Below are positions 10,564-17,615 of a stretch of DNA of 64,000 bases, piece by piece. Both the position numbers and the translations under genes were made by a program. Under the pieces are notes generated by a model that saw nothing but the letters and a program-made list of their open reading frames with translations, was not told the DNA's origin and did not search any database. Each line of letters opens with the position of its first letter. Within the stretch, counting starts at the first letter, position 1. Source of the DNA: Actinomyces sp. (GTDB lineage: Bacteria > Actinomycetota > Actinomycetes > Actinomycetales > Actinomycetaceae); NCBI GenBank assembly GCA_022649165.1, contig JALCNR010000004.1, positions 62,001 to 126,000 of the forward strand, read 5' to 3'.

Positions 10564-10654
10564 ACCCAGGCGGTCACCTCCACGTGGTAGTTTGCGCACG
10601 ACGGGCCCGGGATCTGGATTCCCGGCCCGCGCCGCGCACAGGAAGCGACTCACG

Positions 10655-12049
10655 ATGACTCACCTCGTTCCGACCGCCCCGGCCGCCTCCGCGGCGTCCG
10701 CCGACGATCCGAAACCCCGAATCCTCACCCCGCGGATCCTCGGCTGGGCGTTCTGGGACTGGGGGTCGGCCGCCTTCAACGCGGTCGCCACGACATTCGT
10801 GTTCTCGGTGTATCTCACCAGCGACGGCATGTTCACCGACAAGGCCACCGCCACCGAACACCTGTCCACCGGCCTGACCGTCGCCGGCGTCCTCATCGCC
10901 CTCCTGGCCCCCGTCACCGGGCAGCGCGCGGACCGTCGCGGCAGGGGCGGGGTGTGGCTGGGATGGTTCACGGCGGCGGTCGTCGTCTGCCTGGGACTCA
11001 TGTTCTTCGTCGCCCCCGACAGCCCGCTGGGCCGGGAGGGCGCGCTCTGGCTGGGGATCGGGCTGCTGGGCCTCGGCAACGTCTTCTTCGAGTTCGCCTC
11101 CGTCAACTACAACGCGATGCTCAACCACATCTCGACGAAGCGGACGATGGGGAGGATCTCCGGACTGGGATGGGGGCTGGGATACGTCGGCGGCATCGTC
11201 CTGCTGCTCATCCTGTTCGTCGGGTTCATCAACCCGGAGGTCGGCTGGTTCGGCGTGACCGCGCAGAACGGCCTCAACGTCCGGGTATCGATGCTGGTGG
11301 CGGCCCTGTGGTTCGGCGTGTCCGCGCTGCCGGTGATCCTCAACCCGCCCCGGCCCGCCCACCCCGGCCACGACACCGGGCGCGAGTCCCTCATCGACTC
11401 CTACCGGAAGCTCTGGGGCACGATCGTCTCGTTGTTCCGCGAGGCGCCGCACACTCTGTCCTTCCTCATCGCCTCCGCGATCTACCGCGACGGGCTGGCC
11501 GGGGTGTTCACCTTCGGGGCGATCATCGCCGCCTCGGTGTTCGGGTTCTCGTCCTCGGAGGTCATCGTCTTCGCGATCGCCGCGAACGTCGTGGCGGGGC
11601 TCGCCACCATCGCCTTCGGCGCGCTCGACGACAGGGTGGGGCCGAAACGGGTCATCATGATCTCACTGGTGTGCATGGTCGCCGCGGGGCTGGGGGTCTT
11701 CGCCCTGAGCGGGCGGGGGCCGATGGTGTTCTGGATCCTCGGCCTGATCCTGTGCGTGTTCGTCGGTCCCGCCCAGTCGGCCTCCCGGTCCTTCCTGGGA
11801 CGCGTCATCCCGGAGGGCCGCGAGGGGGAGGTCTTCGGCCTGTACGCGACCACCGGCCGGGCCGTGTCCTTCCTGTCGCCCCTGCTCTACGGTGTGTTCA
11901 TCCGCATCGGCCGGGCGTTCGGTCCGGAGGGCGGCGATCCCACTGCCTGGGGGATCCTCGGGATCATCGTGATCCTGGCCGCCGGGCTGGCACTGCTGGC
12001 TCCCATCAGGACGGAGCGGGCGCATCTGGATATCTACCGCGAGGGTTGA
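10655..12049 (+). CDS. MFS transporter, UMF1/Atg22-like
   Basis: This 464-residue protein has 12 predicted membrane helices. The N-terminal segment RILGWAFWDWGSAAFNAVATT is the hallmark of the UMF1 (Atg22-like) branch of the major facilitator superfamily. RADRRGRGG, a cytoplasmic loop 2-3 basic motif, follows near residue 92. The substrate is not known; fungal members export amino acids from the vacuole. AGGAAG is 9 nt upstream of ATG 10655, and a TAGTTT -10 candidate lies at 10588-10593. The gene interrupts the ispD-ispF order usual in actinobacteria. Confidence 0.82.
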   Translation: MTHLVPTAPAASAASADDPKPRILTPRILGWAFWDWGSAAFNAVATTFVFSVYLTSDGMFTDKATATEHLSTGLTVAGVLIALLAPVTGQRADRRGRGGVWLGWFTAAVVVCLGLMFFVAPDSPLGREGALWLGIGLLGLGNVFFEFASVNYNAMLNHISTKRTMGRISGLGWGLGYVGGIVLLLILFVGFINPEVGWFGVTAQNGLNVRVSMLVAALWFGVSALPVILNPPRPAHPGHDTGRESLIDSYRKLWGTIVSLFREAPHTLSFLIASAIYRDGLAGVFTFGAIIAASVFGFSSSEVIVFAIAANVVAGLATIAFGALDDRVGPKRVIMISLVCMVAAGLGVFALSGRGPMVFWILGLILCVFVGPAQSASRSFLGRVIPEGREGEVFGLYATTGRAVSFLSPLLYGVFIRIGRAFGPEGGDPTAWGILGIIVILAAGLALLAPIRTERAHLDIYREG

Positions 12050-12143
12050 TCCGATCCCTTGGCTGGGTCGTGGAGAGCGTCGGGCTGCGCCGAGGACGAG
12101 GCTCGATGCGATCCGGAGGCTTTTCAAGGCCGTTTCCGGCACC

Positions 12144-12162
12144 GAACCTCGTGCCGGGCGCC
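12144..12162 (-). repeat. Possible half copy of the palindromic repeat at 25148 and 26384
   Basis: The minus strand reads GGCGCCCGGCACGAGGTTC, close to the left arm of the 25148 element. The partner arm is not present here. It sits between the UMF1 gene and ispF. Confidence 0.3.
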
Positions 12163-12196
12163 TGAGCGGGCGTGAACCACGCGCTCGGCGCCCGGG

Positions 12197-12202
12197 TAGT
12201 CT
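12197..12202 (+). promoter_or_regulatory. -10 box for leaderless ispF transcript
   Basis: TAGTCT ends 6 nt before the ATG, with no ribosome site. An identical 20-bp promoter-start segment recurs at 14668-14687. Confidence 0.55.
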
Positions 12203-12208
12203 GGCGCC

Positions 12209-12754
12209 ATGGCCATCCCTTTCCGTGTCGGTCAGGCCCTTGACGTCCACGCCTTCGCATCTTTCCCGAGGGGGGACGGCTCATCCGAGCAGGAGACGCC
12301 CTCGTCGCCCCCGATGATGCTGGCCTGCCTGGAGTGGCCGGGTGAGCCGGCGTTGGTTGGGCATTCGGATGGCGACGTCGCCGCGCACGCTTTGTGTGAT
12401 GCGCTGTTGGGGGCGGCGGGATTGGGCGATATGGGGACGAACTTCGGGACGGATCGGCCTGAGTGGGCGGGGGCGTCTGGTGAGGTGTTCCTTGGCGAGG
12501 TTGTTGCCCGTCTGGTGTGTGCCGGTTGGGTGCCGGTCAATGCGACGGTGCAGGTGATCGGGAACCGGCCGCGGATGGCCCAACGCCTGGAAGAGGCCTC
12601 GGCCCGGATGAGCGGGATCGTCGGCGCGGCGGTGAACGTGTCGGCGACGACGACGGACGGCCTGGGGTTCACCGGGCGCGGCGAGGGGCTGGCCGCGCAG
12701 GCGGCCGTCCTCATCGCGCGCGTCCCGGACGGCCCCGGGACGCCGCGGCCGTGA
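12209..12754 (+). CDS. ispF: 2-C-methyl-D-erythritol 2,4-cyclodiphosphate synthase
   Basis: This 181-residue protein is IspF, which cyclises CDP-ME 2-phosphate to MEcPP. The metal ligands are in DVHAF (Asp and His, residues 12-14) and in [18 protein letters not shown] (about 51-68). The substrate loop [15 protein letters not shown] is at about 149-163. A 12-residue Ser/Pro-rich insertion follows the first metal motif. Codon choice between 12340 and 12600 shifts to G/T-ending codons (GTT, TTG, GGG), unlike both flanks. The 75 bp at 12524-12598 recur with one mismatch at 14769-14843. A leaderless start at 12209 is indicated by TAGTCT. Confidence 0.93.
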
Positions 12755-13253
12755 CGGACCGGGCGAGGACGCCCTCGAAGTAGCCGTACCCGAGGGAGAT
12801 GAACGGCTGGGCGTACAGGTCGGTGAGCGCGGCCACGCCGTTCTTCTCGAAGAACTTGCTGAGCGGCAGCGCCAGGTCGGGGTAGAAGGTGCCGTAGTGG
12901 CCGTTCGCGTCGTAGCCCGGGTACCTGTTCTTGAGGATGCGATCCAGCTTGTTCAGCTGGCACATCAGGCGCGCGCCCTTCCACAGGTTGAGGCCGGTGA
13001 AGGGCCGGTACAGCTTGCCGTCTGGGCGGCGGAAGTCGGTGTGCGCAAGCGACTCGGGCCCTCCCTCCGGGACGCCGGCGGCCGCGCCGAGCTCCTTGAC
13101 GGTGTCGTAGTTGGGCACGCCCATGATGGCGCCCGTCTCGATGCTCTTGCCGCGTAGCTTCGGCGAGTACGTCTTGCCGCCGACCCGGTCGTTCGCCTCC
13201 AGGACCGTGTAGTCGTGGTAACCCTTCTTTTAGAGGAAGTGGGCGGCGGCCAG
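12755..13253 (-). pseudogene. Remnant of an FAD/NAD(P)-binding oxidoreductase
   Basis: About 165 residues of a flavin oxidoreductase remain. The piece begins LAAAHFL at 13253, directly after where a GxGxxG motif should be. It continues past a TAA stop (13232-13230) into GYHDYTVLEANDRVGGKTYS, the typical end of the FAD Rossmann fold. It ends GYGYFEG just before ispF. Both ends are lost: the N-terminal glycine motif and the C-terminal two thirds. An internal ATG at 13124 opens a frame to 12711, but a working enzyme is not possible. The right-hand join fuses it out of frame to the SRPBCC gene. Confidence 0.75.
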
Positions 13254-14106
13254 TCGGGTCGTCGGTGAACGGCGCGCGCAGCGCGGCCACGCGCGGGAAG
13301 TCGCGCGAGTAGCGGGTCTGAGGGTAGGGGTATTTCTTCTGCAACTGAGGATCCGTCGCGTACGCGCGGCCCATGAGCCGCGCGTAGAGGCGCATCGCCG
13401 GAGGTTTGGGCTCCTCGTGGCGGGCGGAGGACTCGATCTTCTTCGACAGGCGGCGGTTCATGATCTGTCCGCCGGAGTCGATGACGAGGCCCATCAGCGC
13501 ATGGACGACCGGGTTCGTGTTGGGACCGACCAGGATGTTCCACCGGCAGTACAGCCGCGTGCGCCGCCCGCCGTCCAGAGGCTCCAGAGCATAGGTGTGG
13601 TTCCACTTGGTGAAGTCCATGAGCGGGGTCAGGATGAAGCTGCCGCCCGGAGTCCACGTGGGGTCGCGGCTGTCGCCGTACCACACCAGGTACTTGCCGG
13701 GCACCATGTCGGCGACCTCGCAGCCCCACCCGGCGTAGCTCCAGGCGAAGAGGTCCCCGGGCGCGTAGGCGTCGGGCTCTTGGTGTTCCGGCTGGAGGGT
13801 GTACATGTTGTCCACCGACATCCTGAACAGCTTCTCGAAGAACGTGAAGCTGTAGAAGCCGGCCTTGGCCGGGTGCAGCTGGTAGATGTGCTTCCACACC
13901 TCCTCCACCGGCGCGTCGAGATCGGCGGCCTGGGTCATGCGGGCGGCCTCCGGCTCGGGAGTCGCCTTGATCGGGTCGGCGTACAGGGCGACGAAGGCCT
14001 TCATGCCGCCGTAGACGGCGCCCGCGGCGGCGGTCGGGACCAGCAGCGCCAGCGCTGCTGTGCGGAGCCTCCCGCTTGTCCTCGTCGTACCCGGTGAATG
14101 CGCCAT
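13254..14106 (-). CDS. SRPBCC-domain membrane-anchored protein, C-terminus fused to remnant
   Basis: This reading frame starts MAHSPGTTRTSGRL, with an uncleaved signal or anchor at residues 13-35. An SRPBCC/polyketide-cyclase-like domain (about 55-220) follows: DLDAPVEEVWKHIYQ is the first strand-helix, and YALEPLDGGRRTRLYCRW is a late strand. It is coding-like for 284 residues, to about 13254. There the frame runs on antisense through the oxidoreductase remnant and ispF without a stop until 12232. So the natural C-terminus and stop were lost by deletion. GAAGGAG precedes the ATG. The function is unknown; it was probably an operon with the upstream TetR gene. Confidence 0.6.
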
Positions 14107-14157
14107 CGTCTTCTCCTTCGACTCCGTGGTGGTGTTCGATGGTTCCCCTCGGCGGGC

Positions 14158-14670
14158 TCACGCGTCCGTGCGCATGCCATGTCCGTTGGGAAGCTGCGGG
14201 GTGCGGGCGAGCTGGTCCAAGGTCAGCTCCTTGAGATGGAGCGACTGGTAGACGCTGTCGGCCAGCACGACGTCGGGGATCTCGGGGTGGAGGCGCATCC
14301 GGTCGACGACGCCGTGGAGCAGGACCAGGCAGGCGTCGCGCAGATGGGCGACGGGCGGACCGTAGGCCGACATGTAGCTGGCCAGCGTCGTGCGGATGAA
14401 CTCGTCGGCGAGCTGGTCCACGACCCGGTCGGTGAGCCGCACGTGGAACCGGGCGTTCTCCGGCTGGTTCATGTCCGGGATCAGAGGCGGGTCGGGAAAG
14501 AGCAATTCGCGCAGCAGGGCCACCCACTCGACGGCCGTGTGGTGGACGTGTCCGCGGCTACGGTGGGCGTCCCACTGGTCGAAGCGGGCGACCATGTCGT
14601 CGACGACCTCTCGCAGGACGGCGTCGATGAGCGAGTCGCGCGTGGGGAAATAGTGGTAGACGAGTCCCCG
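14158..14670 (-). pseudogene. TetR-family regulator lacking its N-terminal HTH
   Basis: About 170 residues of a TetR repressor remain. They start at the end of the recognition helix, GLVYHYFPTRDSLIDAVL, and continue through the ligand-binding helices to a stop at 14158. The first 35 or so residues (HTH helices 1-2) and the start codon are missing. At about 14670 the sequence switches to the ispF-like promoter and leader. The antisense frame continues open through that segment but encodes nothing TetR-like. It lies 51 nt upstream of the SRPBCC gene, which it probably once controlled. Confidence 0.72.
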
Positions 14671-14672
14671 GG

Positions 14673-14678
14673 TAGTCT
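14673..14678 (+). promoter_or_regulatory. Duplicated ispF-type -10 box
   Basis: TAGTCT ends 6 nt before ATG 14685, inside a 20-bp segment identical to the ispF promoter and start. It now drives the ispF-derived leader ORF and the MFS gene. Confidence 0.5.
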
Positions 14679-14684
14679 GGCGCC

Positions 14685-14849
14685 ATGACCATCCCTTTTC
14701 GTGCCGGCCAGGCTGTTGATGTCCATACCTTGGCGTCTTCGCCGTCGTCGATGACGCCGGCGTGCGCTGGTTGGGTGCCGGTCGATGCGACGGTGCAGGT
14801 GATCGGGAACCGGCCGCGGATGGCCCAACGCCTGGAAGAGGCCGCATGA
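14685..14849 (+). pseudogene. 54-codon ispF-derived leader ORF
   Basis: An intact frame begins MTIPFRAGQAVDVHTLASSP, clearly related to the IspF N-terminus. It then jumps in frame to [18 protein letters not shown] and ends RLEEAA. About 55 central codons with the catalytic GHSDGD region, and the whole C-terminus, are missing, so it cannot be IspF. Its TGA overlaps the ATG of the MFS gene (ATGA). The GGAAGAGG at 14833-14840, part of the ispF sequence, is placed as that gene's ribosome site. The 3' 75 bp are almost identical to ispF while the 5' part is diverged. It may act only as a translated leader. Confidence 0.7.
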
Positions 14850-16081
14850 CGGTGCGTTCCGGCGACCCGGCTCGCATCGCGTGGGGCGCGCTGGTCCCCG
14901 TGCTGCTGGTCACCGCCTGCCTGCGCGCGCCCATGTCCTCGGTGAGCCCGCTCGTGGATCTCATCGGCTCTGACACGGGGCTGGCCGCGTGGGCGCTCGG
15001 ACTGCTCACGACCGTGCCGCTGCTAGCCTTCGCCGTGGTGTCCCCGCTGGCCGGCCGCGTCGCCGGGAGGCTGGGCATCGAGCCGGCGATCGCCGTGTCG
15101 CTGGCAGTCCTGGCCCTGGGAGTCGGCGTGCGCTCCCTGCCGTCGGTCGTCGCGCTCTATGCCGGAACCGCGCTGATCGGCGCCGGCATCGCGGTGTGCA
15201 ATGTGCTGGTGCCCGCCGTCCTCAAGAGGGACTTCCCGCAGTCGATCTCGGCGCTCACCGGCCTGTACTCCGGGGTGATGGCCGGCGTCTCCGGCATCGC
15301 CTCCGCGTCCGCGGTCCCCCTGGCCGCCGGATTCGCCGGGCGATGGCGGCTCACGCTCGCCTTGGTCGCGGTGGTCGTCCTCATCGCCGCCCTCGCGTGG
15401 CTTCCGCGCCTGCGATCCGGGTGGACGGCGCCCCCGACGACCGTGGCCGGGACGGGCGCGCCCGCGGCGGGACCCGCGCTGGGCGGCGGCGCGCGCATGC
15501 TCCGATCCCCGGCGGCGTGGGCCGTGTCGGCCTTCATGGGCCTCCAGTCTGCGACTTTCTACATGCTGCTGGCGTGGCTGCCCACCATGGAGAAGACCCA
15601 CGGCCTGAGCGCCGCGACCGCCGGCAGTCATCTCATGCTGCTCATGGTCGTCGGCATCGCCGGCAGCCTGGCCATCGGCCAGTGGATGCAACGGGTCGAC
15701 GACCAGCGGCTGCCCGCCGCGGCCACCGGCGTCGCGATGGCCATCGGCGCCGTCGGCATGGTCGTGGCGCCCGGTTCCGCCGTCGCCTGGGTCGTCGTCA
15801 TGGGCGCCAGCCAGGGGGCGGCCCTGGTGGTCGCGCTGGCCCTGCCCGGGCTGCGCACCCGGACCCCTCAGGAGACCGCCGCGATGGCCGGCATGGCTCA
15901 GTCCCTCGGATATCTGCTCGCGTCGGCGGGGCCCGTCGCCGCCGGTGCGGTCAGCGGCGCCGGCGGGTGGGACTCCGTGCTGTGGATGATCGCCGCCCTG
16001 GCTGCCGCGCAGGTCGCGGTGTCCTTCCTCGCGGCCCGCCCCCGCCCCCGCCTCCGTCCCGGGGCCAGATCCCGGTCGTGA
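14846..16081 (+). CDS. MFS transporter, CynX/NimT-like
   Basis: This 411-residue protein has 12 hydrophobic helices and resembles the cyanate/nitroimidazole (CynX/NimT) branch of the major facilitator superfamily. The N-terminus [14 protein letters not shown] leads into a first helix with [13 protein letters not shown], a segment usual in that branch. The loop 2-3 is AGRVAGRLG. The substrate cannot be told. The start overlaps the stop of the ispF-derived leader, so its expression is probably coupled to that leader's translation and to the copied ispF promoter. Confidence 0.82.
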
Positions 16082-16101
16082 GGGCGGGCAGCGCCGCCCT
16101 C
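16080..16101 (+). terminator. Hairpin at the end of the MFS gene
   Basis: GAGGGCGG (16080-16087) pairs with CCGCCCTC (16094-16101). The stem includes part of the stop codon. Confidence 0.55.
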
Positions 16102-16144
16102 GTCACCTGATCTCAGGGGATCCCGGCCCTCCTAGCGCTCCCAC

Positions 16145-16150
16145 TACGAT
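16145..16150 (+). promoter_or_regulatory. -10 box for leaderless cysS transcript
   Basis: TACGAT ends 7 nt before ATG 16158. It overlaps the alternative ATG at 16149, which argues for the later start. Confidence 0.5.
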
Positions 16151-16157
16151 GGGCCGT

Positions 16158-17615
16158 ATGACGGTGCACCTGTACGACTCGAAGACCGCGCGCGTCCAGT
16201 CGTTGGATCCCGTGACGCCCGGACACGTCGGGATCTACTTGTGCGGGGCGACGGTTCAGGGGTCTCCGCATGTCGGCCACCTGCGCAGCGCCGTCGCTTT
16301 CGACGCGCTCATCCGCTGGCTGCGCCGGGCCGGCCTGGACGTGACGTACGTCCGCAACGTCACCGACATCGATGACAAGATCCTCGCCAAGTCCGCGCAG
16401 GCGGGACGCCCGTGGTGGGCGTGGGCCTACCGCTTCGAACGCGAGTTCACCGACGCCTACCGCATCCTCGGCGTCCTGCCCCCCACCTACGAGCCACGCG
16501 CCACGGGCCACATCCCCGACCAGATCGCGCTGGTCCGACGGCTCATCGACCGCGGCCACGCCTACGCGGATCCGGCGTCGGGCTCCGTCTACTTCGACGT
16601 CCACTCCCAGCCCGACTACGGCTCGCTCACCCGTCAGCGCCTGGTCGACATGCGCACCACCGAGGACGACGCTCAGATCGACGCCGCCGTCGAGGCGGGC
16701 AAACGCGACCCCCGAGACTTCGCCCTGTGGAAGGCCGCGAAGCCGGGCGAGCCCGAGACCGCGCAGTGGGACTCGCCATGGGGCCGAGGGCGCCCCGGAT
16801 GGCATCTGGAGTGCTCGGCGATGTCGCGGCGCTATCTCGGCGAGGAGTTCGACATCCACGGCGGTGGCATCGATCTGCGCTTCCCCCACCACGAGAACGA
16901 ACAGGCCCAGTCGCACGGGGCCGGCTGGGGCTTCGCGCGCCTGTGGGTCCACAACGCCTGGGTGACGACCAAGGGCGAGAAGATGTCGAAGTCGCTGGGC
17001 AATGTGCTCTCGATCGAGGCGCTGACGCGCGACTTCCCACCCGCCGTCCTGCGCTGGGCGCTGTCCACCGTCCATCACCGCAGCGCCATCGAATGGGGGC
17101 CGGAGACCCTGCCTGCCGCCGCGCTCGCCTGGGAGCGCTTCTCGGGCTTCGTCGGACGCGCGATCGACGTGGCGGGCGAAGTGCCCCTCGAGGAGGTCCG
17201 CGCCCTGGCTCCCGACGAGCTTCCGGAGGCATTCTCCGCCGCCATGGACGACGACCTCAACGTGGCGGGCGCGCTCGCGGCCGCCCACGAGCACCTGCGC
17301 GCCGGGAACACCGCTCTGGGCGAGGGGGACGCTCCCGCCGTGCGCCGCGAGCAGCTCCTCGTCCGCTCGATGCTCGACATCCTCGGGCTGGATCCCGCCT
17401 CCCCGCAGTGGCGCGACACGCTGGGGGCGGGCGCGGGGTCGGGCGGCGCCGAGCACGAGGCGCTCGAGGCGCTGGTGCGCGCCGTCGTGGAGGAACGCGC
17501 GCAGGCGCGGGCCGCCAAGGACTGGGCGAGGGCAGACGCCCTGCGCGATCGGCTGACCGCGTCGGGCATCGTGCTGGAGGACGGGCGGGGCGGCGCCACC
17601 TGGCGCCTCGCCTGA
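16158..17615 (+). CDS. cysS: Cysteinyl-tRNA synthetase
   Basis: This 485-residue class I synthetase charges tRNA-Cys. The HIGH-type motif SPHVGH is at about residues 35-40, after the zinc-ligand Cys in YLCGATV. The other zinc ligands are in GWHLECS (about 214-220) and the FPHHENE block (about 239-245). KMSKS is at 275-279. A C-terminal anticodon-binding helical domain ([12 protein letters not shown]) follows. This is true CysS rather than the mycothiol ligase MshC, as the C-terminal domain is present and GWHLEC is intact. The ispF-cysS proximity is usual in actinobacteria. Confidence 0.95.

Follow-up and report, generated by a model that had tools for sequence, protein, structure and literature searches.

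An ispF fragment in front of a transporter gene in an Actinomyces genome: a rearrangement scar with possibly captured expression signals

A fragment of the metabolic gene ispF, which encodes 2-C-methyl-D-erythritol 2,4-cyclodiphosphate synthase, that runs, stop codon on start codon, into an intact transporter gene raises the question of whether such a piece can supply the signals by which its new neighbor is expressed or is only the debris of a rearrangement. The locus lies in a window of 64,000 nucleotides (the whole stretch of DNA that was analyzed) from an Actinomyces genome of 2.80 Mb, a draft in 33 contigs. As judged from its sequence, the region looks first of all like the scar of a rearrangement, since a TetR-family gene is cut at the left join and the intact ispF is inverted. 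The reading preferred here, at a probability of roughly 0.6, is that a local, probably replicative patchwork rearrangement gave rise to the region and that retained ispF signals start and carry expression of the transporter.

The locus and its pieces

The intact ispF (12209-12754, plus strand), which matches YgbB at E 3e-46 and TIGR00151 above its cut-off, is preceded on its 5' side by what we take to be a phosphoglycerate-mutase-like gene, senX3-like and regX3-like genes and ispD, followed by an MFS gene at 10592-12049. On its 3' side the minus strand carries an amine-oxidase-like remnant (12711-13229; PF01593 at E 4e-8, with 75 of the 443 profile positions covered), an SRPBCC-like frame and a TetR-family remnant (14158-14672), after which the plus strand carries the ispF fragment, a CynX/NimT-like transporter (14846-16081) and cysS (16158-17615). 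The names ispF, amine oxidase and MFS rest on Pfam and NCBIfam matches, and the other gene names are judged from the sequence. Along the minus strand, 12711-14106 holds the SRPBCC-like frame first and the amine-oxidase-like remnant next, in a different frame; the remnant is thus out of frame with its upstream gene. Neither Pfam nor NCBIfam gives a match for the SRPBCC-like frame, whose relatives among 198 genomes are only distant (at most 36% identity), and a distant homologue gives a sub-threshold match to Polyketide_cyc2 only. A foreign composition of this island was considered and rejected, the GC3 of the TetR, SRPBCC-like, amine-oxidase and transporter pieces being 0.91-0.94 against 0.91-0.95 in five neighbors.

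The transporter matches MFS_1 at E 2e-25 and TIGR00896 at E 2e-83, in the latter case with 280 bits, below the curated cut-off of 406; it is therefore alike to CynX/NimT and not a certified member of that family. A scan of genome contigs found no donor for it, and the best identity elsewhere, among 58 genomes, is 43-45%.

Between the TetR remnant and the transporter, two blocks match the intact ispF, both far beyond chance for a 64-kb window. The first (14667-14744 versus 12191-12268) is identical at 65 of 78 positions (E 7e-18). It comprises a -10 region at 14667-14684, made up of CCCGGG, TAGTCT and GGCGCC, a putative leaderless promoter core, followed by a 5' coding block at 14685-14744, the counterpart of 12209-12268. 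The second block (14759-14843 versus 12514-12598) is internal to ispF and identical at 81 of 85 positions (E 2e-29). The two share a reading phase and so leave open the 54-codon frame of ispF origin that the earlier note had described (14685-14849, plus strand, with an ATG start), a putative leaderless mini-cistron. Its stop, TGA at 14847-14849, overlaps the transporter start, ATG at 14846-14848, as ATGA, and the putative ribosome site of the transporter, a Shine-Dalgarno-like GGAAGAGG at 14834-14841, lies within the second ispF block; on both points the earlier note was correct.

Its further statement that central codons had been cleanly removed in frame is supported for the phase and not for a single clean excision. 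Between the blocks a short, degenerate remainder of the ispF loop appears to persist, with about 10/11 and 13/16 matches by eye around a 6-base gap, so that the join is ambiguous and the junction zone (14745-14758) may be either degenerate loop remnant or filler. The 33-base and 6-base length differences may represent loop expansion in the intact ispF rather than loss from the fragment.

A third donor for the central stretch (about 14735-14762) was also considered and set aside. The stretch is read as a common codon word because the junction 27-mer has no other copy in its own genome at up to three mismatches and many weak matches there. In 200 genomes of the family, with at most 4 candidates scored in each, the matches listed fall on the second block or the central word, and those on the central word were examined; 20 of the listed matches, all short, fall on this stretch. 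By eye, five of these seem to lie in one gene family, presumably YgfZ-like, two in a second family and 13 are without common context, and in most of the seven assigned to a family the word runs antisense to the gene.

Traces of rearrangement and a likely second donor

One break is at the left join, where the TetR gene appears to be cut inside its DNA-binding domain. Its minus-strand frame runs into ispF sequence within the helix-turn-helix, and comparison with homologues indicates that the first 29 of the 47 TetR_N positions are missing: the remnant gives a weak match, below cut-off, to positions 30-47 (E 0.05), versus full matches over positions 1-47 in the three homologues tested (E 5e-13 to 6e-18). 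TetR matches were found in 16 genomes besides its own among the 198 searched, and all 11 homologues inspected extend in frame upstream of the RxLxYHY word. The TetR gene and the ispF promoter region have CCCGG(G) in common at the join. A native pairing of this regulator with the transporter was considered and found no support; the homologues are on different contigs in G053, which has both.

A further trace is the orientation of the intact ispF. In all 20 genomes of the genus where the two were found, the upstream MFS gene stands on the strand opposite to ispF, as it does in 21/21 named loci with both (an overlapping set), and ispF and cysS likewise occupy different strands in 8/8 loci of the genus with both; in the window, all three genes are on one strand. 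Counted against this are named loci in which ispF and cysS share a strand (8 of the 20 with both genes), all of them outside the genus and titled Arcanobacterium or more distant. In six of these eight, an MFS gene sits between ispF and cysS in the opposite orientation. The order in the window fits neither pattern and would not simply be ancestral; the shortest path to it would be for ispF to have flipped out of the arrangement usual in the genus. A perfect 9-base inverted repeat, CCGGGCGCC/GGCGCCCGG with a 24-base spacer (12154-12195), ends beside the ispF -10 box, probably where the inverted segment has its left edge, and may be either a breakpoint feature or a terminator for the MFS gene. 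Across the genus, the intervals between the MFS gene, ispF and cysS are a variable site: in L097, L098, L099, L101, L103 and L106, the interval on one or the other side of ispF contains variable insertions of about 1.5-5 kb.

The start of the transporter points to a second source. Its start region GGCCGCATGACGGTGC (14840-14855) equals the cysS start region GGCCGTATGACGGTGC (16152-16167) at 15 of 16 positions, and the ispF block, which ends in GGCC, overlaps the cysS piece at that GGCC. The pattern GGCCG-N-ATGACGGTGC is found at exactly two sites in the 2.8-Mb genome, the transporter and cysS starts, 1312 bases apart, while a single mismatch yields no site and two mismatches yield 28; in the 34 other genomes of the genus it has two exact sites altogether, and the backward control has none. 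Only these two starts (cysS itself included) score at least 14 among the 1403 ATGs of the window, while 14 is the best score against the pattern for 6435 ATGs in relatives' loci. Four of the 20,706 pairs formed from 204 start contexts reach at least 14/16, and the other three appear orthologous by position. Counted against the copy reading, the pattern is of favored composition: written backward, it still matches 12 sites in its own genome when up to two mismatches are allowed, versus 30 forward. The transporter start nevertheless appears to have been copied from the start of cysS, and to be neither ispF sequence nor native to the transporter, and cysS is the likely donor, since G028 carries ATGACGGTGCACCT at its cysS start. 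The cysS gene is 75-85% identical in the eight loci of the genus where it was found. Just upstream of it in the window stands a promoter-like TACGAT element of its own, like one in L095, L096 and L102, the three of seven relatives shown in which CACTACGAT is present upstream of cysS.

What can be read from the sequence are thus the pieces, their likely sources, the cut TetR gene and the odd orientation of ispF. As proposed, a local, probably replicative patchwork rearrangement would have flipped ispF and placed copied pieces of both flanking housekeeping genes before an acquired transporter gene, namely the -10 and start region of ispF, a piece from within ispF and some 16 bases from the start of cysS. 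At the left join the TetR gene would have been truncated at the front of its DNA-binding domain, and the ispF piece would have decayed afterwards. Template switching during replication produces patchworks with short shared words at the joins, and it would explain the pieces of both neighbors, the inversion and the cut TetR gene together; separate events are the alternative. Pseudogenes from partial gene duplication are truncated, internally deleted copies near their parent; the ispF fragment resembles them in each of these respects and differs in its place as the possible 5' leader of another gene. A search of the literature on promoter capture with gene fragments, template switching in bacterial genomes, partial duplication of ispF or in Actinomyces, citT and ATGA leaders found no account of this locus among the titles listed.

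Putative promoter and coupled start

A local rearrangement of this kind probably supplied the expression signals of the transporter. Among these is the -10 region. The arrangement TAGTCT-GGCGCC-ATG is unchanged in the fragment (14673-14687), including its 6-nt spacing, and in the genus a TANNNT stands 6-7 nt before an in-frame ATG at 26/29 ispF loci, compared with 53 of the 2686 ATGs in those loci. The scan covered loci L032-L060 with gaps of 5-8 and at most 16 in-frame codons per locus, the background being ATGs with gaps of 5-8; it found no TANNNT at the ispF start of L052, L053 and L054. From its spacing at these 26 loci, ispF of the genus appears to be expressed leaderless. In the passages on leaderless promoters of M. 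tuberculosis in PMC3898074, TANNNT is found at -10 without a conserved -35. The likeness to such actinobacterial promoters, as those passages describe them, lies in the TAGTCT, the 6 nt and the ATG of both ispF and the fragment, whereas the genus is another one (PMC3898074).

TAGTCT-N6-ATG thus looks like a leaderless ispF promoter, and its capture together with a mini-cistron coupled through ATGA is plausible. The claim of the earlier note that the ispF promoter was kept can be maintained for the -10 box and the six bases that flank it to the left and to the right, and for nothing further left, as the homology begins with CCCGGG. The following was counted against capture: no -35 match was found in the fragment (best 2/6; 3/6 in intact ispF), a sigma-70 consensus scan detected no promoter within 12040-16200, and the minimum-energy fold pairs the transporter ATG. 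An attenuator or otherwise unusual leader RNA structure found no support, the fold being unremarkable (z -0.44).

If the retained -10 box is active, leaderless RNA would start at 14685. Ribosomes would read its 54 codons into a carrier peptide without meaning or function of its own and, with GGAAGAGG as an aid, would resume translation at the overlapping ATGA and so produce the transporter. As there is no room for an adjacent promoter, a leaderless start with restart at ATGA would be the simplest route to the transporter. Pairs of genes overlapping as ATGA or TGATG were strictly coupled in 13 of the 14 cases for which PMC6728339 gives tests. The present pair is like the termination-reinitiation pairs of that account in its stop/start overlap and in the Shine-Dalgarno-like site upstream, and unlike them in that the upstream frame is a gene remnant and no true gene (PMC6728339). 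A parallel for the event as a whole is citT in the Lenski E. coli lines, where a transporter gene gains a promoter through local rearrangement (PMC4718724); the present case differs in that the decayed piece of a gene would contribute a translated mini-cistron as well, and that the start would come from a second neighbor.

The foremost alternative is that none of these signals is in use. The fragment would then be dead and the transporter silent or expressed by read-through or from a cryptic start, with the open frame and the ATGA overlap arising by luck. Such an outcome would suit a site where the adjacent TetR and amine-oxidase genes are broken too, where the fragment has altered fixed ispF residues and where 34 other genomes of the genus showed no comparable fragment. 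It would leave to chance the exact preservation of the -10 box and its 6-nt spacing, and it sits poorly with a transporter frame intact across 411 codons and with the lack of intergenic space for another promoter between fragment and transporter, so that we consider it doubtful, if the most credible of the alternatives.

In the comparison of relatives' loci that the earlier note had proposed, the absence of a comparable fragment from those 34 genomes offers nothing in favor of a selected use. A protein search of 35 genomes of the genus returned second ispF-like matches only in the genome studied here, where it is the fragment, and in G020, where the match is weak (35% identity, E 4e-4) and lies within a 1009-residue frame. 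The remaining genomes have one ispF match each, except G004, which has none in that search, through an assembly gap or possible loss. At the DNA level, with at most 23 candidates scored in each genome, 11 other genomes have matches, in 8 places at ispF and in 4 at the short central word. G010, which has only a 5' piece of ispF, was rejected as a parallel case, as its ispF runs into a stretch of N.

To call the fragment recycled as promoter and leader cistron, as the earlier note did, would imply selection for use, and the fragment appears to be known from one genome. The ispF origin, a plausible promoter, the open frame to ATGA and the Shine-Dalgarno-like site speak for that description; the start region that looks copied from cysS, the lost fixed residues, the cut TetR gene and the inverted ispF sit less well with it. 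Similarly tentative, with the odds clearly against it, is the fuller proposition that the whole expression set came from the two neighbors (promoter, carrier cistron and Shine-Dalgarno-like site from ispF, start from cysS), with the cistron still used and its end kept the same as in ispF through gene conversion. Under the preferred reading of capture through local rearrangement, the locus would be a readable natural case in which an acquired gene with a broken regulator may gain the expression signals of its neighbors. Because leaderless promoters fit in a few dozen bases, a 5' fragment of a leaderless gene could act as a portable promoter and start.

Decay and uneven identity of the fragment

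By its substitutions the fragment appears to be a decayed ispF remnant. It changes A15 to T and N111 to D, the first base of both codons being invariant in 29/29 relatives, as well as the second base of codon 7, which is the same in 28/29; the third base of codon 16, C or T in 29/29 relatives, is G in the fragment. With residues altered that are fixed in 29 relatives, the sequence would not be held by IspF function. An intact or functional second IspF was rejected on the loss of these residues and the lack of a domain match, the 54-residue frame having no Pfam match at E 0.001, at which the intact ispF does match.

Over 163 aligned bases the copies show 17 differences, which are unevenly spread: identity is 18/18 upstream of the ATG, 47/60 in the first coding block, 22/26 where the second block begins and 59/59 over its remainder. 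A longest identical run of 59 has a permutation P of 0.005 for 17 differences in 163 positions, and such a 59/59 end match is absent from the 25 closest species pairs listed. The uneven identity suggests that the last 59 bases were renewed by later gene conversion with the intact ispF or came from a second copying event. The divergence of the first block, in which 13 of 60 bases differ with six amino-acid changes, indicates that the rearrangement is not recent. Ten of the 17 differences are at third codon positions, a weak sign that the sequence was once coding and one that may in part reflect changes in the intact gene.

The same divergence, with 8 of the 13 differences at third codon positions, could also mean that the fragment is no copy of the resident gene and came from the ispF allele of a sister species on foreign DNA, an origin compatible with the claims about use. 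The shorter loop of the fragment, closer in length to those of relatives than the resident ispF loop is, would agree with such an import. The final 59 bases would not: they are identical to the resident ispF, which the best of 29 relatives matches at 48/59, and the GC3 of the island resembles the rest. Import is therefore judged unlikely.

Still less likely is a selected regulatory leader, in which the 54-codon frame would be kept because its translation controls the transporter. The net length differences preserve phase, none of the 17 substitutions creates a stop, the frame ends in the ATGA overlap and the 59 unchanged bases include the Shine-Dalgarno-like site; these points would speak for such a leader. 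Yet two of the in-phase length differences may be normal variation of the ispF loop, the RNA structure is not unusual, and gene conversion accounts for the 59-base identity without selection on a leader. An assembly artefact, conceivable in a draft genome of 33 contigs, is very improbable given the 17 differences between the copies, a longest exact repeat of 59 bases and a left join that lies inside the TetR gene with a short shared word.

The N-terminal loop of the intact ispF (12255-12330) is enlarged relative to that of its closest relatives. Across the genus the length of the ispF loop is highly variable, and in L052 it is very long.
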